A program made the translations under genes and the position numbers. This document shows, in pieces, positions 29,158-46,786 of a stretch of 64,000 nucleotides of DNA (position 1 is the first letter of the stretch; every line of letters begins with the position of its first letter). The notes under the pieces are model-generated. The model made no database searches. It saw only the letters and a list, made by a program, of their open reading frames with translations, and was not told the origin of the DNA. The stretch is from Nitrospirota bacterium (lineage in GTDB: Bacteria; JACPQY01): contig JACPAV010000014.1 of the NCBI GenBank assembly GCA_016180645.1, positions 18,716 through 82,715 on the forward strand, in the 5' to 3' direction.

Positions 29158-29167
29158 GTGCCCTCCA

Positions 29168-30577
29168 ATGAAAAAATGGATTCTGCTGATGGGCGTGGCC
29201 GCCGCCGCTGCGGCCGTCTGGGTGATGTGGAAGCCCCTCTTTCGGGGCATGGGCAAAGGGCCTGTGGCGGAGGCGTATCTCGACTTTCAGGATATGTCCT
29301 CGCGCGATTTCTATGGCCGCGCGTTCAAGCCCCTGAAGGGGAAATACGGCAAAGACGTTTCCTTTGAAGTCGTTCCGTTCCCCATGCCCCTCCATCCGCG
29401 GTCGCGTCGGGCGGGCGTGGCCATTGAATGCGCCCAGGAACTGGGGAAGGCGGATGTCTTTATCGATGCTCTCCTCGAGTTTTTTTCGTTTACGGAGAGC
29501 GAACTGGTCCGCGCCGCCAAGAAAGCGCAACTCCCCATCGAAACATTTTCGAAGTGCCTGGCCAAAGCCCGACGCGAAGAAAACCTGGCGAAAAAGCTGG
29601 AGGGGTATCGCAAATCGGGCATCGTCAATGTGCCGACGTTCGTCCTTGGGGACGAACGAATCACGGGGAGCCAGCCGGTCGAGGTGTACGAGCGGGCGGT
29701 GCTGAAAGTTCTCGGAAAGCCCGTTGAAGAGCTCAAGACGTACGGAGTGAAAATCGTCTACGATCCGTCGTGCGACGTCTGCGAGCACACCGCCTACATG
29801 CGAGCCCTGAAAGAGAATTTCTATCCGAGTTTGGAGTCTCAGGACGTTGACTGCTCGTCGGACGAGGGCCGGGCGCTGATGGAGTCGGCCAAGTCGAGGG
29901 CCGTTCCCCTCTACGTATTTGAAAAGGGCATCGAGGCGATCACCTCGTTCCCGCAGATCCGTCCGATTTTCGGCGACATGGCGGAGGGCTTTTACATACG
30001 CCCGGACGCCTACCGATTCACCATGCGCGTACTCGATTCTCCGAATCTGACGGGCCTCCCGGAGAAGGGGAGTCCCAAGGCGAAAGTCAGGGTGATCGAG
30101 TTCATGGATTTCCACTGCCCCCACTGCGGGCAGTTCGCGCAGAATCAGTTGCCGATTCTCGTTGAGAAGTTCGTGAAGCCGGGAATCGCCCGGTGGTCGG
30201 TGGCCGTCTACCCGCTTGGCGCAGAGAGCGTGCCCGTGGCGCAGGCCGCGTACTGCGCGGGCGAGCAGGGGAAGTTCTGGGAGTACCACGACCAACTGTT
30301 CAAAAGCCAAACGCATCGGCACGGGCGGGAAGATCTCCTCAAGGTTGCCACGGAGATCAAGCTGGGCATGGAGCCGTTCAAGAAATGCCTGGATAGCCCC
30401 GCCATGCGGGAGAAAGTCCAGAAGATCTCCAAGGCCGCCGCCGAGCTGGGTGTAAACTCGACACCAACGTTTTTTGTGGGCGATCTGAGGATCAAGGGGG
30501 GCCAGTCCGTACCGGTCTTCGAGGAAGCGATCCAGCAGAAGTTGAAGGACAAGGGACCGGCCTGCAGGAAATCATGA
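29168..30577 (+). CDS. Three-domain thioredoxin-fold (DsbA-like) periplasmic protein
   Basis: 469 residues from ATG 29168. One N-terminal anchor or signal (KKWILLMGVAAAAAAVWVMW). Domain 1 (~30-180) has a DsbA-like fold with the cis-Pro loop IVNVPTFVLGD, but SSRD stands where CxxC should be, so it is redox-dead. Domain 2 (~190-290) is a short thioredoxin-like unit with CDVC (Cys202, Cys205). Domain 3 (~300-465) is a complete DsbA-like thiol oxidoreductase with FHCPHCGQF (Cys317, Cys320) and GVNSTPTFFVGD. It probably introduces or shuffles disulfides in the periplasm. The following gene, overlapping by ATGA, encodes a DsbB-like partner. Confidence 0.85.
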   Translation: MKKWILLMGVAAAAAAVWVMWKPLFRGMGKGPVAEAYLDFQDMSSRDFYGRAFKPLKGKYGKDVSFEVVPFPMPLHPRSRRAGVAIECAQELGKADVFIDALLEFFSFTESELVRAAKKAQLPIETFSKCLAKARREENLAKKLEGYRKSGIVNVPTFVLGDERITGSQPVEVYERAVLKVLGKPVEELKTYGVKIVYDPSCDVCEHTAYMRALKENFYPSLESQDVDCSSDEGRALMESAKSRAVPLYVFEKGIEAITSFPQIRPIFGDMAEGFYIRPDAYRFTMRVLDSPNLTGLPEKGSPKAKVRVIEFMDFHCPHCGQFAQNQLPILVEKFVKPGIARWSVAVYPLGAESVPVAQAAYCAGEQGKFWEYHDQLFKSQTHRHGREDLLKVATEIKLGMEPFKKCLDSPAMREKVQKISKAAAELGVNSTPTFFVGDLRIKGGQSVPVFEEAIQQKLKDKGPACRKS

Positions 30578-31023
30578 CCCCGGGAAACCTGCGCCTCGTT
30601 CGGTGGGGTGTTTTTGTCCTGGGTGCACTGCTGACCGCAGGGAGCTTCTCTCTGAGTCTCGTGGGCGGTTGGACGCCCTGCATCTACTGTCTTACCTTGA
30701 GATACACCGGGCTGGTCCTGTCGGCGGCGGCGCTGGCGAATGCGATCCGTCCCCGAAGATTCCTTGGAGTGGCCGTGGTGGTCCTTTCCCTCGCCGCCCT
30801 CGGTGTGGCCGGATATCTCGTCCGCAAAGACTTCAAACGGCTTGGAATCATCAAGCCCGATCCCCTCAAAGCCCTCACGGGCGGGGATGAATCCTGCGCC
30901 CCCGGGCAGGATTGCTCAACGCCCGTTCTGGGAGGCCTGCCGGCTTCGGCCTACGCTCTGGGTGGGTTTGCGGTCCTCTTGGCGGGCTCCGTTTTGGTGA
31001 CTTTCAAGACCCCAAAAGGCTGA
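30574..31023 (+). CDS. DsbB-like disulfide-bond oxidoreductase
   Basis: 149 residues with four membrane helices. The first periplasmic pair is CIYC (Cys36, Cys39) after the first helix, with an Arg four residues on (LTLRYTG) as in DsbB; the second pair Cys108/Cys114 is in ESCAPGQDCSTP before the last helix. This is the DsbB layout: quinone-linked reoxidation of a DsbA. It overlaps the DsbA-like gene by 4 bp, so the two form a working pair. The following gap to lpxC carries a direct repeat. Confidence 0.88.
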   Translation: MTPGNLRLVRWGVFVLGALLTAGSFSLSLVGGWTPCIYCLTLRYTGLVLSAAALANAIRPRRFLGVAVVVLSLAALGVAGYLVRKDFKRLGIIKPDPLKALTGGDESCAPGQDCSTPVLGGLPASAYALGGFAVLLAGSVLVTFKTPKG

Positions 31024-31060: not shown

Positions 31061-31138
31061 CACGGGAAAAAGTCCTCTGTAAGTGCCCAATAGTTCGATT
31101 GTTCCGATGGCACACCTATTGCGGTGAATTCTAGCAGA

Positions 31139-31990
31139 ATGACGCAAAGGACCATCGGAAACAACATCGAATTGGAAGGGGCGGGTCTCCACACCGGTAG
31201 GGCCTGCCGAATTCGGGTTCGTCCTTCGGAAGCCGGCACGGGGATTCGATTCCAGAAAAAGAATGGATCGATGGGACCGGTGACGGAAGTGTCGTGGAAA
31301 AACGTATCCCATACCGAATACGCCACAACCTTGGGCACGAATGGGATTCGCTTTGCCACGATCGAGCACTTGGTCAGTGCGCTCAGCGGCCTCGGTGTAG
31401 ACAACGCTCACGTTGAAGTTGAAGGTGGTGAAGTTCCCATTCTCGACGGCAGCGCGCGCCCGTTCGTGGACGCGATTCGAGCGGCGGGGATCGTGGAAAT
31501 GGATGCGCCGCGAAAGACCCTCCGGGTCCTCCGTCCGGTCCATGTCGAAGCAGATGGGAAATCGGCCGGTCTGATTCCTTTCGATGGATTCCGCGTCGAG
31601 TGCGGCATTCACTTTGAATCGCCGCTCGTTCGCCACCAAGAGTACGACATGGAAATCACCCCTTCCCGGTACGCGGACGAAATTGCTCCGGCGCGCACGT
31701 TCTGCATGCGGGCGGAAGTGGACAAACTTTGGTCCCTGGGCCTCGCGAAAGGCGGATCGCTGGCGAACTCCGTCGTCTTCGAAAACGGCCATATCCTCAA
31801 TCCGGAAGGGCTCCGCTTCAAGGATGAGCCGGTCCGGCACAAGATTCTCGACGCCGTGGGGGACATGGCCCTCGCCGGCTCTCCGATCAGCGGCGCCTAC
31901 GTGGCCTCCCGATCCGGCCACACGCTCAATCTGGCCCTCCTCCGCGAACTCTTCTCCTCTCCCGACAACTACTCTCTCGAAGAAGCCTGA
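31139..31990 (+). CDS. lpxC: UDP-3-O-acyl-N-acetylglucosamine deacetylase
   Basis: 283 residues from ATG 31139 (MTQRTIGNNIELEGAGLHTG, the normal LpxC beginning; GTG 31124 would add five residues). Zinc and catalytic motifs are present: TIEHLVSALSGLGVDN, the HKILD motif in VRHKILDAVGDMAL, and SGHTLNLALLREL. It catalyses the committed step of lipid A synthesis, direct evidence of a lipopolysaccharide-bearing outer membrane. It stands just before the exbB-exbD-tonB block but is separated from it by a promoter. Confidence 0.97.
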   Translation: MTQRTIGNNIELEGAGLHTGRACRIRVRPSEAGTGIRFQKKNGSMGPVTEVSWKNVSHTEYATTLGTNGIRFATIEHLVSALSGLGVDNAHVEVEGGEVPILDGSARPFVDAIRAAGIVEMDAPRKTLRVLRPVHVEADGKSAGLIPFDGFRVECGIHFESPLVRHQEYDMEITPSRYADEIAPARTFCMRAEVDKLWSLGLAKGGSLANSVVFENGHILNPEGLRFKDEPVRHKILDAVGDMALAGSPISGAYVASRSGHTLNLALLRELFSSPDNYSLEEA

Positions 31991-32006: not shown

Positions 32007-32035
32007 TGTAAATTCCCGCGCCAGGGGTCTATAAT
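32007..32035 (+). promoter_or_regulatory. Promoter of the exbB-tonB operon, leaderless
   Basis: A perfect TATAAT (32030-32035) ends six bases before ATG 32042; 17 bp upstream is TGTAAA (weak -35). With normal start-site spacing the transcript begins at the ATG itself. Confidence 0.65.
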
Positions 32036-32041: not shown

Positions 32042-32668
32042 ATGCGTATCCAGGCCCTTTTCCTTGCCCTGACGCTCGTGGGAGCCCAGTGGGTCCTCTA
32101 CCTGCTGATCGCCCTCAGCATCGGATCGGTGGCCGTGATGGTCGATCGATGGCTCCATCTTCGAAAGCGCCTCGCCTCCGCCTTGGTTCTGCGCCGCGAG
32201 TCGCCGGCGCTCATCCGCGACGGCCACTCCAAGGACCTTGACGCGCTTTTTCGAAAGCACAATCCCGGCGTCGGAAAGGTTTTGGCCGTTGCTCTCGAAG
32301 CGTATCCCAGGGGCCGCACGGCGTTTGAAGGCGTCCTGGCCGCCGAACGATCGCAGGAGAAGGAAGCCAACGAGAAATATCTGGCCTATCTGGGGACGCT
32401 CGGAAACAACGCCCCCTTCATCGGACTCTTCGGCACGGTTCTCGGCATCATCAAGGCCTTCCATGATCTCTCCATCAGCCAGGAGGCCGGTCCGAGCGTG
32501 GTGATGGGTGGCATCGCGGAAGCCCTCGTCGCCACCGCGGTCGGACTCATGGTGGCGATCCCCGCCGTCGTCGCGTTCAACCTGTTCCAGCAGCGTTCGC
32601 GCCGCATCCTGGCGGTCATCGACGAAATCGGCAACCTCCTGGTCGCACAGATCCCCCCTCCAAAGTAA
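32042..32668 (+). CDS. exbB: ExbB/TolQ-type proton channel subunit
   Basis: 208 residues with three membrane helices in the MotA/TolQ/ExbB order: one at 10-35, then a cytoplasmic region (RKRLASALVLRRES...), then LGNNAPFIGLFGTVLGIIKAF and the pore helix VATAVGLMVAIPAVVAFNLF with the conserved Thr. Works with ExbD to turn proton flow into force on TonB in the inner membrane. First gene of the block to 45266; ExbD starts 3 bp after its stop. Confidence 0.93.
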   Translation: MRIQALFLALTLVGAQWVLYLLIALSIGSVAVMVDRWLHLRKRLASALVLRRESPALIRDGHSKDLDALFRKHNPGVGKVLAVALEAYPRGRTAFEGVLAAERSQEKEANEKYLAYLGTLGNNAPFIGLFGTVLGIIKAFHDLSISQEAGPSVVMGGIAEALVATAVGLMVAIPAVVAFNLFQQRSRRILAVIDEIGNLLVAQIPPPK

Positions 32669-32670
32669 CT

Positions 32671-33093
32671 TTGACGGCCCCGGAAAAAGAAGACGATCTT
32701 ATCACGGGCATCAACGTGACGCCGTTGGTGGATATCACGCTGGTCCTCCTCATCATCTTCATGGTCACCGCCGTCTACATCGTCGCCCCAGCCATCAAGG
32801 TCAAGCTTCCCAAAGCCGCCACTGCCGAAAGCACGCCCATCACGAGCGTCGCCCTCGTCCTCGACATCAACCGGGTGCTGTACTTCAATGGAACGCCGAC
32901 GAATGAGGAGGATGTCCGCAAGATTCTGGGCGACCTCGTCCGGGAGAAGACGGACGTGCAGGCCATGATCAGCGCCGACAAGGATGTGACACACGGCGAG
33001 GTGATTCATCTGATGGATCTCGTCCGACAACTCGGTATCACCAAGTTTGCCGTAAACGTCGAAGGCCCGCGTGTCGCTCCGGCGCCACATTAA
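32671..33093 (+). CDS. exbD: ExbD/TolR-type energy-transduction protein
   Basis: 140 residues from TTG 32671. One membrane helix with the essential aspartate in GINVTPLVDITLVLLIIFMV, then the periplasmic ExbD domain (SADKDVTHGEVIHLMDLVRQLG). Pairs with ExbB as the proton-driven motor. Its end overlaps the tonB start by 23 bp, so the three proteins are made together. Confidence 0.93.
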   Translation: MTAPEKEDDLITGINVTPLVDITLVLLIIFMVTAVYIVAPAIKVKLPKAATAESTPITSVALVLDINRVLYFNGTPTNEEDVRKILGDLVREKTDVQAMISADKDVTHGEVIHLMDLVRQLGITKFAVNVEGPRVAPAPH

Positions 33094-33706
33094 CCCCATC
33101 CATCTCGGGATCGGCCTCTCGCTGGCGATCCACCTCGTCGGTCTGGGCGGATTGAGCCGGATCGCGCCGGCCCTCGCGCAGTTCCTTCCCATCGAAGTCG
33201 AATTGGTGGAAGAGGAAAAGCCGCCGGACCCGCCGCCGAAACCGCCCGAACCGGAAAAGCCTCCCGAGCCGAAACCGGCCGAAGAAGTCACGGATCTTCG
33301 CGACGTGCGGGCGAGCGAGGTGCGCGACGTGTTCGGCGTCACTCCCGACTCGGTTGCCGCGGAAGGGGATTTCGAGGCGCCCATCGGTACCACGCTGATG
33401 AAAGAGCCCGAGCCCGAATACGTCCCCCTCCCGGCGGTCTCCGCTTTGCCGAGCTTCAAGACGAAAATCGAACCGGAGTACCCGGATCAAGCGCGCCGCG
33501 CCGGCCTCGACGGCCTCGTGGTCCTTGAGGTCGGGATCGACTCGGCGGGCAGGGTGTTCGAAGTTTCGGTCGTCCAATCTGCCGGGCACGGGTTTGACGA
33601 AGCCGCCATGACGGCGATGAAGAACTCGGTGTTCTATCCCGCTCGTCGCGGAAACGAGCCGGTGGCCGTGCGCCTTCGCATCCCCGTGAGGTTCACCCTC
33701 CGGTGA
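33071..33706 (+). CDS. tonB: TonB-family energy transducer
   Basis: 211 residues from GTG 33071. One N-terminal membrane helix (IHLGIGLSLAIHLVGLGGL), a Pro/Glu/Lys-rich spacer (PPDPPPKPPEPEKPPEPKP), and a C-terminal TonB domain with EPEYPDQARRAGLDGLVVLE and AMTAMKNSVFYPARR. It carries energy from ExbBD to the receptor encoded immediately downstream. Overlaps exbD by 23 bp and the receptor by 4 bp. Confidence 0.93.
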   Translation: MSLRRHINPIHLGIGLSLAIHLVGLGGLSRIAPALAQFLPIEVELVEEEKPPDPPPKPPEPEKPPEPKPAEEVTDLRDVRASEVRDVFGVTPDSVAAEGDFEAPIGTTLMKEPEPEYVPLPAVSALPSFKTKIEPEYPDQARRAGLDGLVVLEVGIDSAGRVFEVSVVQSAGHGFDEAAMTAMKNSVFYPARRGNEPVAVRLRIPVRFTLR

Positions 33707-36234
33707 GGGCATCCCGGCCGTTTGTTCTCGGTATTCTGATTGCTTTTCCGTCCTTGGTCCTTGGCGCGTGGGCCGATCCCAGCGGCACTCCGTCTGAACC
33801 GGCCGGCCATGCGCGCATCGTCTTGAAGGGAAAAGTCCGGGAAAACGGGAACCGGAAGCCGATCGTGGGCGCGACGATCATGCTCATGGGACAGGCCAAC
33901 CTCACGCTTACTGAATTTTCGGATGAGCAAGGACTCTACACATTCAAGGACCTCGCGCCCGGCCCGTACCAGATCTCCGTTCTGGCCGCCTCCTACGTGG
34001 TTGAAAAGCCGCGCTCCGTCGATCTTCAACCCTCGGACGAGCCCATCGAAGTGAACTTTTTCCTGACGCTCGATGTGACCGGCGGACTCTTCCTCGAAGT
34101 GGAACGCGAACGGGAGAAGCGATCCGTCTCCACCCAGAAGGTTCGCAAGGAGGAAATTCGCCGGGTGCCCGGCACGCTGGGCGATCCCCTCCGCGTCATC
34201 CAGCTCCTGCCGGGCGTCACCGTGCTCAACGAGGTCTTCGCGGACCTGATCGTGCAGGGCGGGGGGCCGGACGACAACAAGATCTGGTTGGACCGTACCC
34301 CGATGGCGTTCCCTTACCACCTTCTCAACAGCTCAAGTGTGCTCTCGGGTGAGTTCGTCGAGTCCCAGGAGCTCCACGCGGCCGGGTTCGGCGTGCAGTA
34401 TGGCGATGCCACGGGCGGTGTACTGGAGATCACATCCTCCGACGGAAAGGAACAAGGCATCGGGGGTCACCTCAGCGTGGTAGGCGTGCGGGCCTATGAA
34501 GCCGAGAAATTCAGCGTGGGCCGCGTGGAGGGCAGCCTCCAGGCGGGCGACCCCGCGGTGGGCTCGGTGATTGCGGCGGGGCGATACCTGTTCCCACCGC
34601 CGACGATTCCCGGGTTTGAACTTCCCGGGCAAGGTCCGGTCTTCCAGTTTTCGCCGGTGGGCTGGGATTATCAGAGCAAGTACACCGGGAAAACGGGGCG
34701 AATGGGGACGTTCCGTCTTTTGAGCTATGGCGCGGTGGACGAAGAAAAACAGAACATCCACTTCGAAGGGCCGGTCCCTCAGACGGGCCAAAACCTGACG
34801 TTCGAGATCAAGTTCCTCCAGGAGAAGCAATTCCACACGCAAGGAATCCTATGGGACTTGCCGGTGGGACCCGTCACTTCACGCCTGTCCCTCTATCGGA
34901 CCGAGAACGTGGACGATTTCAAGATCAGTCTCCCCCTGCTGCAACTGGAGGATTTTATCGACCGCCGGGAAGCCAATCGAGAGTTCGGAATATGGGACGA
35001 TCTTGAGATCCTGGCCGGCAAGCATCAGACGATTATTCTGGGGGTCCAGGCCGAGCGGGTGAGATCGAAAATCGGGGGGGTCGCACCGGTGTTTATCGCA
35101 GCAGGAGGAGCGCAGTTTCGCCCGCCGGAAGACGGCGCCGTACCGGGGTCCTTCGCCGGCGGCGGCGCGCCCGCCAGGCAGGAAAGTGAGAGTGAGGGTG
35201 GAGGTGAGGAGGAGGCGGAAGAGGAAGAAGAAGAGGAGGAATTCACGCCGCTCTCGTTCAAGCCGTTCAGCGTGAAAGAGACGTTCAACGCGTACGGCTT
35301 TTACCTTGCGGACAAGGTTCGCCCGGTGGAGCGGTTGACGTTGGTCCCCGGCGTGCGCCTCGATCGCTCCACTCTCGTCTGGAAGAACTCCGACGTTCAC
35401 TACCGCGACGTCTTCATGCCGCGAGCCCATGGTACGTTCCAACTCTTTTCCAAGACCAAGCTCCGCGGCGGGTGGGGGATCTACCGCCGGTTCCCCGAGG
35501 CGGACCAGGCAACCGATCAGGGGCAGGTGGATCAGGATGGCAATGTGACGCGGAAGTTCGGGAACCCGTACCTGCTTCCCGAGCGGGCGGTGCACTATGT
35601 CGGGGGCGTTGAGCAGAAGCTGACGGAAGCCTTGCGCGTGGAGGCCGACGTGTTCCACAAGAAGTTGACCCGCTTGATCATGGGCGAACCGGAATCGAAC
35701 GACGGCAGCGGGTATGCCGATGGCGGCCAGGTTCTGCTACGGCACGACTTGACTCGACGGTTCTTCGGCTGGGTGTCCTATTCGTACACCAAATCGAAAC
35801 GCCGGAACCTTCGCACGGGCAAACTCATTCCGACCCAGTGGGACCAGCCCCACGTCCTCAGTGTCGTCTCCAGCGTCAAGATCACCCCGGAGTGGGAAGT
35901 CGGCGCCAGCTTCCGGTACACAAGCGGCTCTCCCGTTACACCCATTTACAACGACGAGAAGCGGGACCCTGACTTGGACGAGGATATCCATGCGGATGCG
36001 CTGCCTGCCGAACCCAACTCGGGGCGCATGAGGGATTTTCAGCGGCTGGATCTCAGGGTTGAGCGGAGTCTGAAGATACGATACGCCGAAATCGCTCTCT
36101 TCCTGGATGGTTTCAACGTGTTCAACCGAAAGAACGAAATCTTTCGCATTCCCTCCTTCGAAGACCCGAGCCAGTACATCCCACTCTCCACGGCCGGACT
36201 CCTGGTCTATGGAGGCGCTACGGCGAGATTCTGA
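33703..36234 (+). CDS. TonB-dependent outer-membrane receptor with carboxypeptidase-regulatory-like N-domain
   Basis: 843 residues from GTG 33703. Signal peptide (~1-25), a CarboxypepD-regulatory-like domain (~35-115; VRENGNRKPIVGATI, YTFKDLAPGPYQISVLA) as in SusC-type receptors, the plug (DPLRVIQLLPGVTV, IWLDRTPMAFP, QYGDATGGVLEI), then the 22-strand barrel ending FNRKNEIFRIP...YGGATARF with a terminal Phe. Residues ~488-514 form an acidic loop with a long Glu run. Its neighbours are the whole exbB-exbD-tonB set upstream and two giant lipoproteins downstream, so it is probably the channel of a dedicated uptake system. The ligand is unknown; a glycan is plausible from the lipoprotein modules. 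Confidence 0.93.
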   Translation: MRASRPFVLGILIAFPSLVLGAWADPSGTPSEPAGHARIVLKGKVRENGNRKPIVGATIMLMGQANLTLTEFSDEQGLYTFKDLAPGPYQISVLAASYVVEKPRSVDLQPSDEPIEVNFFLTLDVTGGLFLEVEREREKRSVSTQKVRKEEIRRVPGTLGDPLRVIQLLPGVTVLNEVFADLIVQGGGPDDNKIWLDRTPMAFPYHLLNSSSVLSGEFVESQELHAAGFGVQYGDATGGVLEITSSDGKEQGIGGHLSVVGVRAYEAEKFSVGRVEGSLQAGDPAVGSVIAAGRYLFPPPTIPGFELPGQGPVFQFSPVGWDYQSKYTGKTGRMGTFRLLSYGAVDEEKQNIHFEGPVPQTGQNLTFEIKFLQEKQFHTQGILWDLPVGPVTSRLSLYRTENVDDFKISLPLLQLEDFIDRREANREFGIWDDLEILAGKHQTIILGVQAERVRSKIGGVAPVFIAAGGAQFRPPEDGAVPGSFAGGGAPARQESESEGGGEEEAEEEEEEEEFTPLSFKPFSVKETFNAYGFYLADKVRPVERLTLVPGVRLDRSTLVWKNSDVHYRDVFMPRAHGTFQLFSKTKLRGGWGIYRRFPEADQATDQGQVDQDGNVTRKFGNPYLLPERAVHYVGGVEQKLTEALRVEADVFHKKLTRLIMGEPESNDGSGYADGGQVLLRHDLTRRFFGWVSYSYTKSKRRNLRTGKLIPTQWDQPHVLSVVSSVKITPEWEVGASFRYTSGSPVTPIYNDEKRDPDLDEDIHADALPAEPNSGRMRDFQRLDLRVERSLKIRYAEIALFLDGFNVFNRKNEIFRIPSFEDPSQYIPLSTAGLLVYGGATARF

Positions 36235-39200
36235 ATGAACAAGTTTGTGATGAGGTTTTTCGTCGGGTCGTGGGCGCTACCGGTTCTGCTTGCAGCGTGT
36301 GAGGCGAAGAAACAGGACGCTCCACCGCCGGTGGCCGGAGTCGGTACGATTGAAGGCCGGGTGGTCCCCGCCCGAGCAGGCGTTTTCATTCGAGTTGAGA
36401 GGACTTCCCTCGCAACGACCACCGATTCGGCAGGAAAGTTTCGGATCCATCTTGCCCCGGAGGGGCAGATAAGTGTGACGGCGGAGTACCGCGATGAAGC
36501 GGGGGCGACCTTCATCGCACGACGGACCGTTACAGTCGAAAAGGAAGAAAAGACGACCGTGGAAGACTTGAGGGTGGTTCCGGCCGGAACGATTCGAGGG
36601 ATGGCTCGACTCAAAGGGGGAAGCATACGCGCGGGGATCGAGGTTGTCCTGGTGGGGACCCGTCATGAGGCCCGAACGGAAAATGACGGATCGTTCGTGA
36701 TGGGCGCTGTCGCACCGGACGCCTACACCGTGGCCTTCGTATCCACCGGGTTTGGTGCGGTTCAGCGCGAAGACGTGGAAGTGGCTGAAGGAGAGACCAC
36801 GGACCTTGGCTGGGTGGAGCTCGAAGCGGAGTCGGATCCCGGCAATCGCACGGTGTATGGCACGGTCACCGGCATGGTTACGGATACCGAAGGGAGTCCT
36901 ATCAGTGAAGCGGTTATTTCCGCCACACCGGGAGCGGGCCTTGCCATGACGGATGAGAATGGGACCTACACCTTGGGGGGGCTCTTCCCTGTGACGGTTT
37001 CCCTTCTTGCGCAGAAAGTTGACTATGTATCACGGTCCCTGAGCGTGTTCATTACGGCGGGCCAGAAGGCGTCCGGGGATATCACCCTCACCCGCCGGCG
37101 CCGGCTGGGCGACGCACGACACACGATCTTTTCCAATGAACCTCCAACCGTTGCGCTGAACTGTCCGGATGTCCTGGCGCCGGGTGGGAAAGGGTCCGTC
37201 TCCATCCGATCGGTGGATCCGGACGGGGATCACGCAACCCTTTCGAGTATTACCGCGTTGTCGGGCGCAGTCCTGTCGGAAAGCATCATCCCGTGTGCGG
37301 GAGAGGAAAGGGCGGCGTGCGCCACCGTGGAAGTGGTTGCGCCCTCTTCGGGCGGCGAAGTGACCCTTCAGGTATCAGCAACGGATGGTTCGCTGAGAGT
37401 GGACGGTCGCTGCGAAATGGCCGTGGCGGACGGAACGGGAGGGGTCAATCAATGCCCTGTGGTCTCGATGAGCGGTCCACTCACGGTTTCACCGGGGCGA
37501 ACATTGCTGCTGCGGAACTCCCGGGTCGATGCCGACGGAGATCCCGTGTCGGTGAGATGGCAGGCGACGGGTGGGAGGATCATGGAAGCAACGGACGAGG
37601 CCGCGGCGTGGACGGCGCCGGGTCATACGGGTCAAGAAGAGATTCGGGCCTGCGTGACCGATGGAAAATGTGAACCGAGCGCCTGCGCGACGATCCGAAT
37701 CCAAGTCGCCGAGTCGCCTGCGGACAGCCGCGCCCCGACGTGCGCTCCCACGGGGGCGTCTTCCGCCCGTATCCATGAAACGGTAACCCTGACCGCGGCC
37801 GCGTCGGATCCGGACGGGGATTCGATCCGGATCTCCTGGAGCTCCTCCGGTGGCCACCTTTCTTCCAAGAGCGGGCCGGTGGTGACGTGGACGGCCGGTG
37901 ATGTGCCCGGCCCGTACGGTGTGACGTGCACGGCTCGTGACGAAAAAGGCTCCGAAGGAACCGGCCAGATCGGCATCTCCGTGACGAAGCCACCGGTGGG
38001 CAAGACGTGTCCGACCCTCGCGGCCCGCGGCCCGGCCCTGGTCTCGCCAGGCGGAAAGGTGTCCATCGATTTCCTGGCCTCGGACACGAACCAACCTGAG
38101 GAGGTCCTCACAGGCGGGTGCACAATGCCCCCGGGTTCATACGACGTGTCGAATATTCGGGCGACCGGTGCTGCGAATTTTGGCTGGACGGCGCCGGATG
38201 TTCCGGGCGTATTCGTGTTCCACTGCTCCACCTCCAATTCGGTTTGCACGCGATCGTTCGAGCATGCCGTCCAGGTGGTGGCCGCCCCAGTCCTGGGGAT
38301 CGGCGTGAGCTGTTCTTCCCCCGCGCTGCTGGGCGGCCAGTCCACTTCCTGCGCGGTGACCGCCTCCGAGCAGGCGGATTTCCGCTGGACCGCTTCCGGA
38401 GGACGCTTGTCCTCGACCACCGGATCGGAAGTGACTTGGACCGCCCCTTCCTGTCCGCGGTGCGCCGGTATGTATGCCCTGACCGTGGCTGCTTCGGCGG
38501 CCGATGGCCGGGTCAACGCCGCACAGCAGACCATCGGTGTCCAACTGGCAAATCGGGCACCCGAGGTTTCGTTGGATGGACCGGCCGAAGCGGATCCGTT
38601 GCAACTGGTCGGTCTCACGGCCCGCGCATCCGATGCCGATGATCTCCCGGCGCCCCTCGCATGCGATTGGACGGCTTCGGGGGGGACCCTCGCCAAGGCA
38701 GAAGGCTGTGGCGAACAAGTTTGGACGGCTCCCGCCGTTCCTGGGAAGTATTCCGTCTTCGTCGTTGCCGGTGATTCGGACCGATCCTCCTCCGCTTCCA
38801 CCGAGATCACGGTCAAACCGCCTGCGGGCGGGCGTCGGCCCACAGGATCCATTTCCGCGCCGGCCAAGGTCGCCGTCGGTGCGCCGGCGGATCTTGCGTG
38901 CAGCGGCATGGCCCCAGATGCCAAACTCCTCACTTACGCTTGGAACGCGACGGGTGGATCTTTTTCCCAGACGGACGGGACTTCAGCGAGCGCTGGGACC
39001 GTTCGGACCCGGTGGACGGCTCCGAATGCCGCAGGACCGGTCACGATAACCTGCATCATTCAGGACGACGCGTCACCGCCGAGCATCTTTCAAGATCGGC
39101 ACATCGTGGAGGTGACCGCTCTCCCCTCCGGAGCCGCCTACGAGTGCGATGAGAATACCCTCGCTCTCTACCACCTCGATGAAACGACGGGGACGGTTGC

Positions 39201-41394
39201 GTTCGACGCATGCGGCGAGCGCCATGGAGTTCGCAAAGAGGGGGAAATCGATCAGGACGGTGTTGCGGGTCGTTCCTATTTCTTCGATGGGGCGGACGAT
39301 TTCCTGAAGATTCCCGATGCCCTCAATCCGGGAGTGGAATCGCGCTTCACGATCGAGGCGTGGTTCAAGCTCAAGTGCGATTGCCCCGGCTCCGGGCTGA
39401 CGCTGGTCTCGAAGGGTGGGGGAAGCGAGGGGACGTTTGATCTGCGCGTGATGGAGAACGGACAGATTCGATTTTCGATGACGCCTTTCGATCGGTCCGC
39501 TCTGTCGCCCGTGGCCTCGGTGCGAACCGTGCATGATGACGGATGGCACCACGCCGCCGCCGCGTACGATGGTCGAACCCTCAGCCTCCATCTGGACGGA
39601 CGCTTGGAGTCGAGCGGCGCGTATCACAAGACCCTCGGGGACTCGGATTTCCCGCTCCTGATCGGCGCGTCGGATTCCGATGAGGATGGAAGGCCCGATG
39701 CGAGGTTTTTCAAGGGTTGGATCGATGAGGTCCGTATTTCTTCGGCGGCGAGAGCTTCCAACGAGATGAACGTGGTCCGGGAGAGCCGGGCGCTGAAATG
39801 GGCGAAAAGCAGCGGGAATCCGATCTTTGCAGCCACCGATCTCTGGGAAATGGCGAGCGTTGCGTATCCGTCGGTCCTCAAAGTCTCGTCGACCTATGTC
39901 ATGTTCTATCAAGGGGGAAGCATTGCCGCATGGAACATCGGCGAGGCCACGTCCAAGGATGGAATCTCATGGACACGGCTGCCGGTGCCCATCGTTACCA
40001 TCGGTTCGTCCGGCGCGTGGGACGCCGGTCGGGTGCAAATGCCTTCCATCTACTACGACGGAGCGGAGTACTGGATGTATTATGGCGGGAAGGCCAAGAC
40101 AACCGATACCTCGAGCAAGCTGGGCCTGGCGAAATCGACGGACGGCCTCAAGTTCACCAAGCATGAGTCCAATCCTCTCCTCGAACCGGGAGGGACCGCT
40201 GCCTGGGATGAAATCACCGGATTTCCAGGATCCGTGGTGAGGGAGAGTGGAGAGTTCAGGATCTACTACACCGGATACACCGCGTCCGAATCCACCAAAG
40301 GCCGCATCGGACTCGCGACATCCTCCGACGGGGTGAAGTGGACGCGCCACGACTCGAACCCGTTGCTCGCGCCGGGCGATACCGGCCAATTCGACGACAC
40401 GTCGGTTCAGAATCCACGGGCCGTCAAGATTGGCGCGATCTGGTATCTCTTCTACGAGGGCGTGAAGAAGGGGGGAACGACCACCATCGGCTTGGCCACC
40501 TCTCTGGATGGCATTCGATGGACCAAAGCCGACTCCAATCCCGTCCTCGGCGCCGGCCAGGCGTGGGAAGTGCTTCCCCAACTTCAGACGGGCTTTCCCC
40601 TCTTGGACGGGGACCAGATCAAACTCTACTACTCGGCCACAACCCTGACCGGAGCCAAGATCGCCCTTGCGTACGAACTCCCGGAGACTTTCATCCCGGC
40701 CGGGCGCTTTGTGATGGGGAGCGATGCCGATGAAGGCCTGGCGACGGAACGCCCGGAGCACGTTGTCTATCTGTCACCGTACTGGATGGACCGCTTCGAA
40801 GTTACAAACGCGGCCTTCCGATCGTGCGTAGATACGGGCCCGTGCAGCGCTCCAAGCGGCGGGTCGGGGTCGGCCACGCGATCGTCCTACTACGGCGATG
40901 CCGCGTTCGATCTCCACCCGGTCGTCCGAGTGACGTGGAACCAGGCCGACCAGTATTGCCGTTGGATCGGGAAGCGATTGCCCACGGAGGCGGAGTGGGA
41001 GAAAGCGGCCCGGGGGCCCTATCCGGACGAGCGCCCCTATCCATGGGGAGATGGAGAGCCATCCTGCTGGCCGGCGAATATTCGAGGTTGCGTGGGCGAT
41101 ACGGAAAGGGTCGGCTTCATGGCCGGAAGTTCCGCCTCCCCGTATGGCCTCTTCGATTTGGGCGGCAATGTGGCCGAATGGGTAGGCGATTGGTCCGACT
41201 CGACGTATTACGGCGTGAGTCTCCCTCGTGATCCTGCCGGTCCGGCTACCGGTTCCCTCAAAACGGCTCGCGGGGGCTCGTGGAATGATGCGGAGCCGAA
41301 ACAGACGACTCGCGTGTCGTACCGTGAATCCTCGGCGGGTGCGGAGAGTTTCGCGAGCACCGAAGTGGGGTTCCGTTGCGCGCGGAATCCGTGA
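36235..41394 (+). CDS. Giant modular lipoprotein: CarboxypepD-reg / Ig-like array / LamG / five-blade propeller / SUMF1-like
   Basis: 1719 residues starting directly after the receptor stop. Lipoprotein signal with Cys22 (ALPVLLAAC). Modules in order: about three carboxypeptidase-regulatory-like domains (~35-285), a run of degenerate Ig/PKD-like domains (~300-965) each closing with a W-T-A motif before a G-x-Y or G-x-V strand (WTAPGHTG, WTAPDVPG, WTAPAVPG and others), a LamG-like domain (~968-1180; LALYHLDETTG, RFTIEAWFKL), a GH43/GH32-like propeller (~1185-1480; repeated 'ATSKDGISWTRL', 'AKSTDGLKFTK', 'ATSSDGVKWTR'), and a SUMF1-like domain (~1484-1719; PAGRFVMGSD, LPTEAEWEKAARG, GNVAEWVGD, GFRCARNP). 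The two catalytic cysteines of formylglycine enzymes are absent (GGSWNDAEPKQTTRVSYR). A surface glycan-binding role is inferred. Confidence 0.88.
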   Translation: MNKFVMRFFVGSWALPVLLAACEAKKQDAPPPVAGVGTIEGRVVPARAGVFIRVERTSLATTTDSAGKFRIHLAPEGQISVTAEYRDEAGATFIARRTVTVEKEEKTTVEDLRVVPAGTIRGMARLKGGSIRAGIEVVLVGTRHEARTENDGSFVMGAVAPDAYTVAFVSTGFGAVQREDVEVAEGETTDLGWVELEAESDPGNRTVYGTVTGMVTDTEGSPISEAVISATPGAGLAMTDENGTYTLGGLFPVTVSLLAQKVDYVSRSLSVFITAGQKASGDITLTRRRRLGDARHTIFSNEPPTVALNCPDVLAPGGKGSVSIRSVDPDGDHATLSSITALSGAVLSESIIPCAGEERAACATVEVVAPSSGGEVTLQVSATDGSLRVDGRCEMAVADGTGGVNQCPVVSMSGPLTVSPGRTLLLRNSRVDADGDPVSVRWQATGGRIMEATDEAAAWTAPGHTGQEEIRACVTDGKCEPSACATIRIQVAESPADSRAPTCAPTGASSARIHETVTLTAAASDPDGDSIRISWSSSGGHLSSKSGPVVTWTAGDVPGPYGVTCTARDEKGSEGTGQIGISVTKPPVGKTCPTLAARGPALVSPGGKVSIDFLASDTNQPEEVLTGGCTMPPGSYDVSNIRATGAANFGWTAPDVPGVFVFHCSTSNSVCTRSFEHAVQVVAAPVLGIGVSCSSPALLGGQSTSCAVTASEQADFRWTASGGRLSSTTGSEVTWTAPSCPRCAGMYALTVAASAADGRVNAAQQTIGVQLANRAPEVSLDGPAEADPLQLVGLTARASDADDLPAPLACDWTASGGTLAKAEGCGEQVWTAPAVPGKYSVFVVAGDSDRSSSASTEITVKPPAGGRRPTGSISAPAKVAVGAPADLACSGMAPDAKLLTYAWNATGGSFSQTDGTSASAGTVRTRWTAPNAAGPVTITCIIQDDASPPSIFQDRHIVEVTALPSGAAYECDENTLALYHLDETTGTVAFDACGERHGVRKEGEIDQDGVAGRSYFFDGADDFLKIPDALNPGVESRFTIEAWFKLKCDCPGSGLTLVSKGGGSEGTFDLRVMENGQIRFSMTPFDRSALSPVASVRTVHDDGWHHAAAAYDGRTLSLHLDGRLESSGAYHKTLGDSDFPLLIGASDSDEDGRPDARFFKGWIDEVRISSAARASNEMNVVRESRALKWAKSSGNPIFAATDLWEMASVAYPSVLKVSSTYVMFYQGGSIAAWNIGEATSKDGISWTRLPVPIVTIGSSGAWDAGRVQMPSIYYDGAEYWMYYGGKAKTTDTSSKLGLAKSTDGLKFTKHESNPLLEPGGTAAWDEITGFPGSVVRESGEFRIYYTGYTASESTKGRIGLATSSDGVKWTRHDSNPLLAPGDTGQFDDTSVQNPRAVKIGAIWYLFYEGVKKGGTTTIGLATSLDGIRWTKADSNPVLGAGQAWEVLPQLQTGFPLLDGDQIKLYYSATTLTGAKIALAYELPETFIPAGRFVMGSDADEGLATERPEHVVYLSPYWMDRFEVTNAAFRSCVDTGPCSAPSGGSGSATRSSYYGDAAFDLHPVVRVTWNQADQYCRWIGKRLPTEAEWEKAARGPYPDERPYPWGDGEPSCWPANIRGCVGDTERVGFMAGSSASPYGLFDLGGNVAEWVGDWSDSTYYGVSLPRDPAGPATGSLKTARGGSWNDAEPKQTTRVSYRESSAGAESFASTEVGFRCARNP

Positions 41395-44300
41395 TGAACC
41401 TGAACCGGTCGCTGAGTGTCTTTGCCGCCCTCTTCGTCGCCTTGGCCGCGGCCTGCGAGAAGAATGATCTCGGCGACCCCCTGACTGTTCGAACAGGCTC
41501 GGTCGTCGGCCGAGTGACCCTCCTCGGCGAGGCAAAGTCCCAAGCGGCTATCCGGCTTGAGGGGACCAATACTCAAACCACATCGGATGCGAAAGGCGGC
41601 TTCCGTCTCGATCTTGCCGCGCCGGGGAAGAATGTGCTGACGGCCTTCTTCGATGCACCCGAGGGATCGACGTATGGGATTCGCCGGGACATCGAAATCG
41701 TGGAAGGCGAAGTTCTCGGCTTGGGAGAAGTAGCACTCGCCCAGGTCGGCGCCGTGGCGGGGGAAGTGAAGCTTCAAGATCGGAGGACCCATCTCGGCTC
41801 AGACGTCTTCGTACCGGGGACGGAAATGTGGACGCAGACGTCGACGGACGGTTCGTACACCCTGACGCGTGTCCCACCCGGTTTCTACCGCCTCGTGGCA
41901 GCGAATCGAGATTTTGAAATGGTCGAGTACGCCGAGTTCGAAGTGGCATCGGGAGAAACGACGGTTCTACCGGCGATTGAACTTCATCGCAGAGGGGAAG
42001 ACTCTCAGCGGGGAGCCCTTTCGGGTCGTGTCTTCAGTCTCGTGGGAAGGCCGCTTGAAGGAGCCATCGTGAGCATGATTCCACCGATTCGGACGGCCAC
42101 CACCGGGGAGGACGGGGGTTACGAATTCAAAGACCTCGATCCCGCGGAATACCTCCTCCGCGCGGAACTCGAAGGAAAAGTGACCGGCAGCAAGCGCGCG
42201 GTCGTCCGCGCCAACGAGACGGCCACGGCCCACCTGGCGCTTCCGGCGTTGCCGAATCAGGACAAACCGGGCCGGGGAGGCTGGAACTCGGAGCCTCGCC
42301 TCATGGTGACCTGTCCCGAATCTGTGCGCGTCGGAGAATCGGCGGGATTGCGGGCCGATGCGATGGATAGCGATGGCGATCCCGTCACCCTGGGCCCGTT
42401 TGCGGCAACCGGAGGGGCGTTCTCTTCGCCGAGCGATGGTGAGGCGTGCGAACCGGAAGAGGGCGGCGTCTGCGCGACCGCCGAATGGAAAGCTCCCGAT
42501 CGCCCCGGTCTGTACATGATCCGGTCGACGGCCTCGGATGGTCAACTCATGGCGGAGGCTTCCTGCGAGATCGCGGTCTCGCGGGCGTCCGGACCGGATA
42601 ATCATTGCCCCATGGTGGCGATCACCGGCGCGACCCGAACGCTTGTGGCCCGTCACGTGTCGTTGGCGGTCTCGGGGTCGGACCAGGAGGGGGATCCGAT
42701 TTCGTACAACTGGTCCGCTTCCGGCGGATCGCTCGACCGGCGGACGGGTGAAGAAGTAATCTGGACCGCCCCGCGCTCGGCAGGCGATTACGACGTTTCC
42801 GTCTGCGCATCGGACGGCCAATGCGCCAAGTCGTGCGCCACCGCGCGGATCAATGTCGGAGAAGAAGCCGAAAAGGCCACTTTTCCGGCCTGCGGGATCT
42901 CGGGCCCCACGCTGGCATCGGGGGGTTCCGTGGTCGGCCTCTGGGCGGCGACGTACGATCCCAACGCGTTTCCCGTCAAGGTCCAGTGGTCGGCCACGGG
43001 CGGAACTTTCCCCATTCCGGAAGGAGCCCTGGCCAATTGGTCGGCCCCGGCCCAAAGCGGCATGTACACCGTTTCCGCCAAAGCCACGGCCGCCAGCGGC
43101 TCGACGGCTACGTGTCAAATGGGGATCGTCGTTACCGACTCCGCCGCGGTTCGCGGCTGTCCGACGCTGGACGTTCAAGGCTCCTCCACGTCGGTTAAAG
43201 CGATGCCGGTTCGGGTTGAATTTGTCGCCGAGGGGCGCGAGTCCGGCGGTCTTTCATCGAATCTATCGTGCGACACTCCAAACGGACCGTTCCAAACGTT
43301 CGATGTCAGCGCCGAGGGAGCCGTGTTCGAGTGGTTCCCTCTTTTTGAAGGGGTCTACACATTCTCCTGCAAGATCGCAGAGGGGAGCTGCGCCGTGGGC
43401 CGCCTTCATTCCATAGCCGTCACGGACCGACCCGACGATCTCCCGCCGTTCGTCGGAGTCTCCTGCACCGCCGACAAGCTTCTTCCGGGCCAATCGACAC
43501 TTTGCCTGGCCTTCGGCAAAGATCCCAAGGATCAGGAGGTGACGTTCACATGGTCCGTGGCCGCCGGTACGCTCTCCTCCCTGGCCGGAGATTCCGTGAT
43601 GTGGACGGCGCCCCCGGCGGGCGGGGAATACCGAATCGCCATCGTGGGGAGCGATGGCGCCAACGAGGCCCGCTCGTCCCATTCGCTCCGGGTGGGCGCC
43701 CCTAGATCCGTCACCGACTTCTCCCCATCCGACGCCGTTCCGGAAGGGGAGTACGCGTGCGACGCAAGCACCGTCGCTCTCTACCATTTCAACGAAACGG
43801 AGGGGGCGACCGCGCAAGATACGTGTGGATCCCATCCGGCGGTCATTCGCGGCGCTGCCGTCAACCGGGCCGGCCGGTGGGTGGGGGCGTACTCCTTCGA
43901 TGGATGGGACGATTCGGTGGAGATCCCGGCGGCGGCGGTGTCGGGACTGGCCAACGGTACCGTCGAGGCGTGGGTGAAACTGACCGCTACATGGCGCGAC
44001 TACGAATGGGCGATCCGAAGAAGCGAGGAGGCGGATCAATGTGATCTCAGGATGAGGTACACGGCGAGAACTCAGTCCTGGGGAGCGACGTGGAACAATG
44101 AGTGCGTGGATATCAACCACAAGCTGGACCGGAACACGGCGACGGATTTTGGCTGGCATCATCTGGCCGTGACGTGGGACGGCGTGCTCTGGAAAATGTA
44201 CCAGGATGGGCTGTTGCGCGTCGCCTCGCCTGATGTGGCCGGGCTGGAATCGAACGACAACCCCTTGGTGATCGGCCTGGTGACGGCCGGGGTCGAAAGC

Positions 44301-45266
44301 GCGCTGTATGGCATGGTGGACGAGCTTCGCATTTCCGATCGCGCCCGCGAGCCGGAGGAATTTCGTGTTCTTGCGGCGCCGGTCTCTCCGATTTGGACCG
44401 ACAAGTCGGCGATGGCGGGGGCGAGAGCCGATGCCGCCTCCGCCGCGGTGGAAGGGAAGTTGTATGTATTTGGAGGCAGAAAGGAGGAGAACGAGGCGCT
44501 CTCGACCAACGAGGAATTCGATCTTCTCAAAGATTCGTGGTCCTCGAAAAAAGACATGCCCACCGATCGGTGGGATGCGGTTGCGGTGGCCATCGGCCGC
44601 CGGGTCCATCTGATCGGGGGCACCCGGTTCAAAGACAAGCCACTTCTTGTGGCAAAGAACGAGGAGTACGACACGGAGAAGGACGCTTGGTCCAAGCGCG
44701 CGGATTGGCCGCGGCCCCGATTCGGCGCCGTGGCGGCGGCAGTGGACGGGCAGGTCTTTGTGCTCGGGGGATCGAGCGAATTCCAGGACCAGGGCAGCCT
44801 GCCGCAGGTCGATCGGTATGACCCGGTGACGGACGGATGGACGGAACGCGCGCCGATACCCACGGCCCGATCGCACGCGGCCGTGGCCGTGCGGGCAGGA
44901 TCGATCTATGTCATCGGGGGAGCGAGTGATGAGGGATTTCGGAATTCCACCGAGCGATATGACGCGCGCTCCGATACCTGGTCGATTCTTGCGCCCATGC
45001 CGACTCCAAGGAAATCCGCCGTGGCGCTGGTCGATAACGATTTCATTTACGTCATTGGCGGAGAGGACGGGTCCACGCTGAAGGTCGTCGAAGCCTACGA
45101 TCCCGTTAGGAATACGTGGACATCATTGGATCCGCTTCCCGATCCTCGAACGCGGTTCGTGGGAACGGTATTTCAGAGGCTGTTGTTTCTGGTGGGTGGG
45201 TACGACGGTACAGCCGTTCTGTCATCGGTCCTTCAAGGATTTCTCTTTCCCCCCCGCCCGGAATAG
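41394..45266 (+). CDS. Giant modular lipoprotein: CarboxypepD-reg / Ig-like array / LamG / Kelch propeller
   Basis: 1290 residues from ATG 41394, which shares one base with the upstream stop (TGATG). Lipoprotein signal with Cys21 (LFVALAAAC). Carboxypeptidase-regulatory-like domains (~35-290), five Ig-like units (~300-770) with W-x-A/P closers (WKAPDRPG, WTAPRSAG, WSAPAQSG, WTAPPAGG), a LamG-like domain (~787-985; VALYHFNETEG), then six Kelch repeats (~999-1285) marked by LYVFGGR, VHLIGGT, VFVLGGS, IYVIGGA, IYVIGGE and LFLVGGY. The first two thirds are paralogous to the upstream giant; the C-terminal module was exchanged. Probably the last gene of the exbB operon and exposed at the outer membrane. 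Confidence 0.9.
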   Translation: MNLNRSLSVFAALFVALAAACEKNDLGDPLTVRTGSVVGRVTLLGEAKSQAAIRLEGTNTQTTSDAKGGFRLDLAAPGKNVLTAFFDAPEGSTYGIRRDIEIVEGEVLGLGEVALAQVGAVAGEVKLQDRRTHLGSDVFVPGTEMWTQTSTDGSYTLTRVPPGFYRLVAANRDFEMVEYAEFEVASGETTVLPAIELHRRGEDSQRGALSGRVFSLVGRPLEGAIVSMIPPIRTATTGEDGGYEFKDLDPAEYLLRAELEGKVTGSKRAVVRANETATAHLALPALPNQDKPGRGGWNSEPRLMVTCPESVRVGESAGLRADAMDSDGDPVTLGPFAATGGAFSSPSDGEACEPEEGGVCATAEWKAPDRPGLYMIRSTASDGQLMAEASCEIAVSRASGPDNHCPMVAITGATRTLVARHVSLAVSGSDQEGDPISYNWSASGGSLDRRTGEEVIWTAPRSAGDYDVSVCASDGQCAKSCATARINVGEEAEKATFPACGISGPTLASGGSVVGLWAATYDPNAFPVKVQWSATGGTFPIPEGALANWSAPAQSGMYTVSAKATAASGSTATCQMGIVVTDSAAVRGCPTLDVQGSSTSVKAMPVRVEFVAEGRESGGLSSNLSCDTPNGPFQTFDVSAEGAVFEWFPLFEGVYTFSCKIAEGSCAVGRLHSIAVTDRPDDLPPFVGVSCTADKLLPGQSTLCLAFGKDPKDQEVTFTWSVAAGTLSSLAGDSVMWTAPPAGGEYRIAIVGSDGANEARSSHSLRVGAPRSVTDFSPSDAVPEGEYACDASTVALYHFNETEGATAQDTCGSHPAVIRGAAVNRAGRWVGAYSFDGWDDSVEIPAAAVSGLANGTVEAWVKLTATWRDYEWAIRRSEEADQCDLRMRYTARTQSWGATWNNECVDINHKLDRNTATDFGWHHLAVTWDGVLWKMYQDGLLRVASPDVAGLESNDNPLVIGLVTAGVESALYGMVDELRISDRAREPEEFRVLAAPVSPIWTDKSAMAGARADAASAAVEGKLYVFGGRKEENEALSTNEEFDLLKDSWSSKKDMPTDRWDAVAVAIGRRVHLIGGTRFKDKPLLVAKNEEYDTEKDAWSKRADWPRPRFGAVAAAVDGQVFVLGGSSEFQDQGSLPQVDRYDPVTDGWTERAPIPTARSHAAVAVRAGSIYVIGGASDEGFRNSTERYDARSDTWSILAPMPTPRKSAVALVDNDFIYVIGGEDGSTLKVVEAYDPVRNTWTSLDPLPDPRTRFVGTVFQRLLFLVGGYDGTAVLSSVLQGFLFPPRPE

Positions 45267-45290
45267 ACCGGGGCATTCATCTAATTTTCC

Positions 45291-45324
45291 TTCTGCTGAA
45301 TGCCGACGGCTGAACGCTGAAAGC
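45291..45324. repeat. Degenerate GCTGAAN heptamer repeat
   Basis: Units resembling GCTGAAC / GCTGAAA in a 7-base register fill most of the 62-bp gap between the convergent giant lipoprotein and malic enzyme genes. Confidence 0.4.
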
Positions 45325-45328: not shown

Positions 45329-46786
45329 CTACAGCCCCATCTCGGGCTGGATCTTCGTGCGCTTTCGGCGGGCGACGCCTGTCTTGATCGCAGACTCGAT
45401 CACGGCCTCGGCGACGGAGAGAGAAACTTTCTTGTTGAAAACGCTCGGGATGATGTAGTCCTCGTAGATCTCGTCCTTGCCTATCGTGCCGGCAATGGCT
45501 TTCGCCGCGGCAATCTTCATCTGCATATTGATGTCCCGGGCCTGGCAATCCAACACGCCCCGGAAAAGGCCGGGGAAACAAAGGACGTTGTTGATCTGGT
45601 TCGGGTAGTCCGAGCGGCCGGTGGCGATGATCGTGGCATGGGGAGCGGCCTCTTCCGGCATGATCTCCGGAGTGGGATTGGAGAGGGCAAACACGATCGC
45701 CTTCTTGTTCATCCGCTTGATGTCCTTGGCTTCGACGAGTTTCGGACCGGACAGCCCCATGAAAAGGTCGGCCCCCACGAGCGCATCCGAAAGCGTCCCC
45801 TTGAGCCCGCTCTTGTTCGTGCGGTCGGCGAACCATTCCTTCATAAAATTCATGTTCTCTTTGCGCCCTTTGTAGATGATTCCATTCCGGTCGCAGGCAA
45901 TGATGTTTTTCACGCCCATTTCCATCAGGATTCGGCCGCATTGGATCCCCGCAGCTCCGGCGCCAAGGATGACGACTTTCAACTCCTTGTAGGACTTCTT
46001 CACGACTTTGAGCGCATTGATGAGGGCGGCCAGGACCACGACGGCGGTGCCGTGCTGATCGTCATGAAAAACGGGCACATCCAAGTCCTTCTTGAGACGT
46101 TCTTCGATTTCAAAACAACGCGGCGCCGAGATGTCTTCCAGATTGAAGCCACCGAAAACCGGCGCGACGAATTTCACGGTATTGACGATGTCGTCCACTT
46201 TTTGGGTTTTGAGGCAGAGGGGAAAGGCGTCCACGCCGCCGAACTCCTTGAACAGGGCGCACTTCCCCTCCATAACGGGGAGGGCGGCCTCGGGACCCAT
46301 GTTGCCGAGTCCCAGTACGGCGCTGCCGTCTGACAGTACGCACACCGTGTTCCGCTTGATCGTGAAGGCGAAAACTTTTGAGGGATCCTCATGGATCGCC
46401 TGGGTTACGCGGGCCACACCCGGTGTGTAGACGAGCGAGAGATCGGTCCGATTCCGAATGGGCGCCTTGAGCGAGGTCTGAATTTTTCCGCCGCGATGCT
46501 TCTGAAAAACCTGGTCGAAGACGTGAATGATTCTGACGTCGCGGAGATCCTTGACGCGGACGATGATCTGGTCCATGTGATCCGAGCCGGTCGCGTTGAT
46601 CGTGACCTCGCGGGTGACCTGATCGCGCGTGGCCTCGATGAGTTCGATGGCGCCAATGTCGCCGCCGGCCTTGCCGATCGCGGACGTGAGTTTGCCGAGC
46701 ATGCCGGGCACGTTGCGGATCTGCGCCCTCAGCGTGAAGCTGTAGCCCGGAGAAGGGCGGACTTCTGGTTTGTCTTGGGTTGTCAT
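45329..46786 (-). CDS. NAD(P)-dependent malic enzyme with N-terminal ACT domain
   Basis: 485 residues. ACT domain (~12-90; RAQIRNVPGMLGKLTSAIGKAGGDIGAI), then the malic-enzyme core: RTDLSLVYTPGVA, VLSDGSAVLGLGNMGPEAALPVMEGK, VFHDDQHGTAVV (metal ligands), VVILGAGAAGIQCGRIL (NAD fold), ATGRSDYPNQINNVLCFPG. It decarboxylates malate to pyruvate with NAD(P)+. The ACT domain suggests allosteric control by a small ligand, perhaps an amino acid. A good promoter ends nine bases before the ATG, with no ribosome site. Confidence 0.95.
   Translation of the reverse strand: MTTQDKPEVRPSPGYSFTLRAQIRNVPGMLGKLTSAIGKAGGDIGAIELIEATRDQVTREVTINATGSDHMDQIIVRVKDLRDVRIIHVFDQVFQKHRGGKIQTSLKAPIRNRTDLSLVYTPGVARVTQAIHEDPSKVFAFTIKRNTVCVLSDGSAVLGLGNMGPEAALPVMEGKCALFKEFGGVDAFPLCLKTQKVDDIVNTVKFVAPVFGGFNLEDISAPRCFEIEERLKKDLDVPVFHDDQHGTAVVVLAALINALKVVKKSYKELKVVILGAGAAGIQCGRILMEMGVKNIIACDRNGIIYKGRKENMNFMKEWFADRTNKSGLKGTLSDALVGADLFMGLSGPKLVEAKDIKRMNKKAIVFALSNPTPEIMPEEAAPHATIIATGRSDYPNQINNVLCFPGLFRGVLDCQARDINMQMKIAAAKAIAGTIGKDEIYEDYIIPSVFNKKVSLSVAEAVIESAIKTGVARRKRTKIQPEMGL

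Follow-up and report, generated by a model that had tools for sequence, protein, structure and literature searches.

A putative Ton-powered outer-membrane transport operon with two giant modular lipoproteins in Candidatus Figaniota

Introduction

Gene clusters that join ExbB, ExbD and TonB with a TonB-dependent transporter (TBDT) are already known from M. xanthus, which has three of them (PMC6434023). Its transporter Oar carries an NTE domain (PF13620), has an associated Ton gene cluster and is needed for the secretion of PopC, and the Oar architecture accounts for 28% of TBDTs and is dominant in Bacteroidetes (PMC6434023). Lipoprotein lids on TBDTs have been proven for BtuG (PMC10404256) and XusB, a seven-bladed propeller (PMC13142918). 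Structural detail of lipoprotein-assisted TonB transport is known mainly from Bacteroides.

In this study, we analysed a locus from a rare groundwater bacterium of the candidate phylum JACPQY01, or Candidatus Figaniota, which comprises two groundwater genomes of 3.29-4.72 Mb (PMC11382960). The whole stretch of 64,000 nucleotides is referred to as the window, the source genome (4,716,505 bases, 97% complete) as G000, and the other Figaniota genome (3.3 Mb; JACPQY010000056.1 and companion contigs, a groundwater MAG submitted under Nitrospirae) as G001. Groundwater metagenomes are the sole source of both organisms. G001 is the nearest genome to G000, and the comparison within the phylum rests on these two genomes, which are all the Figaniota in the search set.

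Results

Six plus-strand open reading frames (ORFs) occupy positions 32042-45266 of the window and encode ExbB, ExbD, TonB, a TBDT and two very large lipoproteins, LP1 and LP2 (Table 1). Their best domain E-values in Pfam or NCBIfam range from 1e-18 to 1e-51, so that they are not chance ORFs. The MotA_ExbB, ExbD and TonB_C matches all lie far past the cut-off, in agreement with the preliminary description of a tip-to-tail set of six genes that includes a complete Ton motor; encoded together, these three proteins qualify as a Ton system. The junctions had been given as 0-3 bp, and the close packing holds, with a 2-bp gap between exbB and exbD, a 4-bp overlap between tonB and the TBDT gene, no gap between the TBDT and LP1 genes and a 1-bp overlap between those of LP1 and LP2, but exbD and tonB overlap by 23 bp. 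For LP2, a TTG at 41376 is also open as an alternative start.

Table 1. Features of the locus in the window, and positions of four A3 lipoprotein genes in related loci
Feature	Position	Strand	Basis or remark
lpxC, upstream neighbour	31124-31990	+	PF03331, 7e-99
TATAAT, possible -10 element	32030-32035	+	sequence; scan not above chance
exbB, exbB/tolQ-family proton channel, 208 aa	32042-32668	+	PF01618 (MotA_ExbB), 2.8e-32; adjoins exbD and tonB
exbD, 140 aa, TTG start	32671-33093	+	PF02472, 8.2e-26
tonB, 211 aa, GTG start	33071-33706	+	PF03544 (TonB_C), 7.2e-20; G001 orthologue, 74% identical over its visible 141 aa
TBDT, 843 aa, GTG start	33703-36234	+	Pfam, AlphaFold2 model; 66% identical orthologue in L102 (G001)
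LP1, lipoprotein, 1719 aa	36235-41394	+	lipobox and Pfam; conserved in L102 (55% identity)
LP2, lipoprotein, 1290 aa, ATG start	41394-45266	+	lipobox and Pfam; conserved in L102 (about 50% identity)
Hairpin 3' of LP2, lacking a T tract, possible end of the transcript	45272-45306	+	fold z = -1.9
Malic-enzyme gene, convergent with LP2	45329-46786	-	
A3 lipoprotein, locus L055	13945-14862		
A3 lipoprotein, locus L058	7749-8624		
A3 lipoprotein, locus L125	12214-13224		
A3 lipoprotein, locus L158	12336-13265		

The six genes are probably co-transcribed; a start from one promoter, as had been proposed, was not borne out by a promoter scan. The TATAAT upstream of exbB is perfect, and an exbB transcript from there would be nearly leaderless. 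A promoter scan of the region found no passing -35 partner for it, and the number of promoter-like sites equalled that in shuffled sequence. As lpxC ends 51 bp before exbB on the same strand, read-through from lpxC is possible. Upstream of lpxC, at 29144-31023, overlapping genes encode a DsbA/thioredoxin-like double-domain protein and a DsbB-like protein.

The receptor has the Oar architecture, with an N-terminal CarboxypepD_reg domain ahead of plug and barrel. Pfam places CarboxypepD_reg (PF13620) at residues 41-120 (6e-10), which confirms the carboxypeptidase-regulatory-like domain noted there earlier; the barrel (PF00593, 5e-18) is over the cut-off and the Plug domain (1.1e-3) below it. By region, the NTE domain spans about 39-122 and the plug about 140-245, followed by the barrel. 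AlphaFold2 predicts a normal plugged barrel (pLDDT 78, pTM 0.72), whose top matches among solved structures are FecA, Cir, Fiu and BtuB (FecA with Z 37.5 and an rmsd of 2.8 over 553 residues). The barrel match and the FecA-like predicted fold together place the protein among the TBDTs. BtuB3, from the BtuB3-BtuG3 complex, ranks 11 among the structural matches listed and the levan SusC (6zlt) ranks 40 of the best 50, in an order in which rows of close Z are tied.

The receptor had been called SusC-like. We rejected its membership of that class on the basis of this structural distance, the lack of any match to the SusC/RagA model TIGR04056 at E 0.01, and the absence of SusD/RagB (PF07980) from both Figaniota genomes in a search with a positive Bacteroides control; the likeness to SusC is limited to the CarboxypepD_reg NTE. 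In the receptor tree, the window TBDT and its G001 orthologue sit on a long branch beside a Myxococcota group. Residues of about 480-516 form an acidic, Glu-rich tract (EEEAEEEEEEEE) that is disordered in the model and lies between two long strands, a pattern that makes an extracellular position likely. This tract is present in both orthologues and absent from the paralogous C60/C63 receptors, and is possibly a cation-binding loop.

LP1 and LP2 are built on a common plan. Each begins with a lipobox that predicts lipidation (LLAAC in LP1, LAAAC in LP2), followed by three CarboxypepD_reg domains, a string of PKD and Ig domains and a Laminin_G_3 (LamG) domain. LP1 continues with a five-bladed GH32/43/130-like propeller and a C-terminal FGE-sulfatase domain (Pfam, 2e-49) that was unnamed in the first reading, whereas LP2 ends in a Kelch propeller (5e-51). 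Stalk and LamG are common to both proteins, which are 32% identical over about 740 aa of stalk, so that the claim of two paralogous, modular giants with different heads is borne out. Propeller-bearing lipoproteins, a feature of lids of the BtuG/XusB type, are thereby encoded beside the TBDT. For the head of LP1, from LamG through propeller to FGE, AlphaFold2 gave no usable model (pLDDT 44).

At the copper site, where solved FGEs read GGSYLCHDSYC, LP1 reads GGSWNDAEPKQ, and the copper-site cysteine pair is absent from the LP1 of both the window and G001. LP1 is therefore unlikely to be a formylglycine-generating enzyme, and a functional FGE was rejected. The fold of this domain resembles TvpA (2y3c). 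A role of LP1 as the target of a diversity-generating retroelement was set aside because its C-terminus shows high conservation across the two genera.

At C3:196500-219000 (L056, L057), G000 encodes three more giants of 1499-1725 aa, lipoproteins or similar to lipoproteins, with a triple CarboxypepD_reg. Two of them carry NHL-repeat heads, and no TBDT was seen near the three in the stretches read. Together with those on C29 and C50 of G001, five related giants lie away from any TBDT in the stretches read, which indicates that the design does not need a receptor.

G001, which belongs to a different genus, carries tonB-TBDT-LP1-LP2 (L102/L054) in identical order and with the same heads; exbB and exbD are not visible there because the contig begins inside tonB. 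The preliminary description had named receptor and lipoproteins in unrelated places in related genomes as the observation that would speak against a unit, and G001 keeps them together. As order and heads are kept in a second genome, the tonB-TBDT-LP1-LP2 unit is no accident. Identity between the LP1 orthologues climbs from 44% in the stalk through 64% in the propeller to 72% in the FGE-fold tip, which marks the head as the constrained part; along LP2 it is flatter (45-57%). The LP1-LP2 junction of G001 spans roughly 150 bp and contains repeat-like palindromic sequence (L054:8112-8250).

The TonB of the window is the sole PF03544-type TonB found in a search of G000, and G001 likewise has one TonB_C protein, at its tonB-TBDT-LP1-LP2 locus. 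G000 encodes five TBDTs, one of which lies in a B12-type locus, next to genes for a BtuF-like binding protein and a cobinamide kinase. A single TonB against five TBDTs does not fit the private energy supply proposed earlier; in the simplest view, the window motor is the cell's general Ton motor, its genes lying next to that of one client, and it would also serve the other TBDTs. Elsewhere in the genome are a TolA-like protein (PF13103) and a TolQ/ExbB protein. Among the other three MotA/ExbB matches, the one inspected closely (C2) resembles MotA, with a MotB-like gene behind it.

Scanning 85,000 genomes with a profile yielded 80 related loci. The TBDT is preceded by exbB-exbD-tonB, or by as much of that set as is visible, in one FCPU426 locus and five loci of the Myxococcota type (L125, L135, L156, L158, L166), and in the latter a lipoprotein of 280-350 aa comes after it. 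The second TBDT (C60/C63) of both Figaniota genomes is also followed by a small lipoprotein of ~300 aa. We labelled the family of ~280-350 aa lipoproteins adjoining Oar-architecture TBDTs A3 and built an HMM from eight members. Neither Pfam nor PDB gave a match for these lipoproteins, and NCBIfam gave an isolated one for a single member. The HMM recovered a held-out ninth member beside a Lujinxingia TBDT (7.7e-29) and matched 128 of 146 Myxococcota genomes. An A3 lipoprotein adjoins a TBDT, in either gene order, in 48 of 50 Myxococcota loci, a sample of 30 best hits (largely one family) and 20 loci picked mainly from other families, with mechanical ORF calls in which several overlaps are due to over-long ORFs. 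A neighbouring lipoprotein is common within the Myxococcota-Figaniota TBDT group, and the motor-linked Figaniota TBDT has two giants in that place. Homology between A3 and the giants was not counted, as the A3 HMM (--max) gave no match to the window ORFs at 1e-3 and hhalign of the A3 profile against the giants gave E 0.0018 with a probability of 14.6%.

In Poribacteria (L106, L108, L111, L116 and others; >12 loci), a TBDT pair has an FGE-domain gene on its upstream side and often a tonB downstream. This pattern was not used as evidence because another gene intervenes in L111, the locus inspected; a DUF5916/CBM9-like gene stands between the TBDTs and tonB there.

Discussion

The explanation that we favour, and to which we give about an even chance, is that of a Ton-powered outer-membrane transport operon in which the giants would be surface lipoproteins that catch a ligand for import by the TBDT. 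ExbB-ExbD-TonB would couple the proton gradient to a pull on the plug of the Oar-architecture TBDT. LP1 and LP2 would be anchored at the outer membrane by their lipid and three transthyretin-like domains, with the Ig string keeping the heads away from the membrane. The LP1 head, made up of LamG, propeller and FGE-fold, and the LP2 head, of LamG and Kelch, may capture a ligand of glycan or chelate type and deliver it to the TBDT, which would import it. The giants would then stand in for the ~300-aa lipoprotein found beside related TBDTs. This picture is weakened by the giants seen away from TBDTs, by the low hhalign probability between A3 and the giants, and by the roughly 150-bp LP1-LP2 junction in G001. 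The analogy with BtuG and XusB and the conserved LP1 tip both point to ligand capture, and the giants are most likely accessory lipoproteins of the cell surface, catching substrate as these lids do but with a different architecture.

A wider proposal can be made tentatively and with less than even confidence: the TBDTs of Myxococcota and Figaniota may use dedicated lipoproteins other than SusD. In most Myxococcota this partner would be the A3 family, and in Figaniota a pair of stalked giants with exchangeable heads would have replaced it as long ligand-capturing arms of one motor-linked receptor. If the conserved Myxococcota pairing and the giant version in this deep candidate phylum are indeed of this kind, TBDTs have enlisted lipoproteins of several unrelated types. 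The conserved pairing also yields concrete pairs of TBDT and lipoprotein for purification and testing.

The giants could instead be adhesins with a general role at the surface or in the matrix, which belong to the operon for dosage only and make no contact with the TBDT, as might be expected from the further giants that combine the same CarboxypepD_reg domains with other heads (NHL) away from TBDTs. However, the gene order is kept between genera, in the two genomes known for the phylum, the spacing in the window is near zero, and the adjacency of lipoprotein and TBDT is general in the receptor group; we regard this explanation as unlikely, though deserving of attention. In another scenario, TBDT and motor would move protein outward, in the manner of Oar and PopC, and so place the giants or other cargo on the surface. 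The operon does contain lipoproteins of cargo size, but only 34 residues of the TBDT match PF25183, the Oar-like barrel model, and no TBDT was seen near the paralogous giants. The window TBDT has the same NTE domain (PF13620) as Oar, itself needed for PopC secretion, but the Oar architecture is found in 28% of TBDTs and is dominant in Bacteroidetes (PMC6434023). The known examples there are importers, and export appears improbable. Finally, the giants might be enzymes whose products feed the TBDT: LP1 would activate sulfatases or cleave glycans at the surface, and LP2 would act as a Kelch oxidase or as a mutarotase. The FGE-sulfatase and GH32/43/130-like matches in LP1 and the N-acetylneuraminate epimerase-like Kelch matches in LP2 might suggest this, but the missing copper-site cysteines in both LP1 orthologues and the weak, partial nature of the glycosidase matches make it very doubtful.

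The transport operon that we favour can be set beside several known systems. A literature search returned no paper combining TBDT, FGE, Kelch and lipoprotein, and the locus had been thought to have no described counterpart, but clusters of motor and TBDT are already on record for M. xanthus (PMC6434023). There, the Ton(Oar)-Oar cluster and two others keep motor and TBDT together as the window does, and Oar likewise has the CarboxypepD_reg NTE; in contrast to the window, the available text on these clusters mentions no giant lipoproteins and describes an Oar system that has two ExbDs and is needed for protein secretion (PMC6434023). The exbB-exbD-tonB-TBDT operons of Myxococcota have the same first four genes, then a lipoprotein gene at or near the TBDT stop, with one small (~300-aa) product where the window encodes two modular lipoproteins of 1300-1700 aa. 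BtuB-BtuG and XusA-XusB of Bacteroides also join a TBDT with a cognate lipoprotein, and the window TBDT counts BtuB3 among its structural matches. However, BtuG and XusB are small lids with proven contact, and the accessible portions of the reports on these lids describe neither a CarboxypepD_reg stalk nor a LamG domain or FGE fold. The SusCD utilisomes of Bacteroidetes resemble the arrangement proposed for the window, as their TBDT is joined by several accessory lipoproteins at the surface, glycan binders among them, but they have a SusD lid and a larger SusC (PMC7618045), whereas the window is without SusD. The layout of motor and TBDT is thus already known, and the giant lipoprotein partners are the unusual addition.
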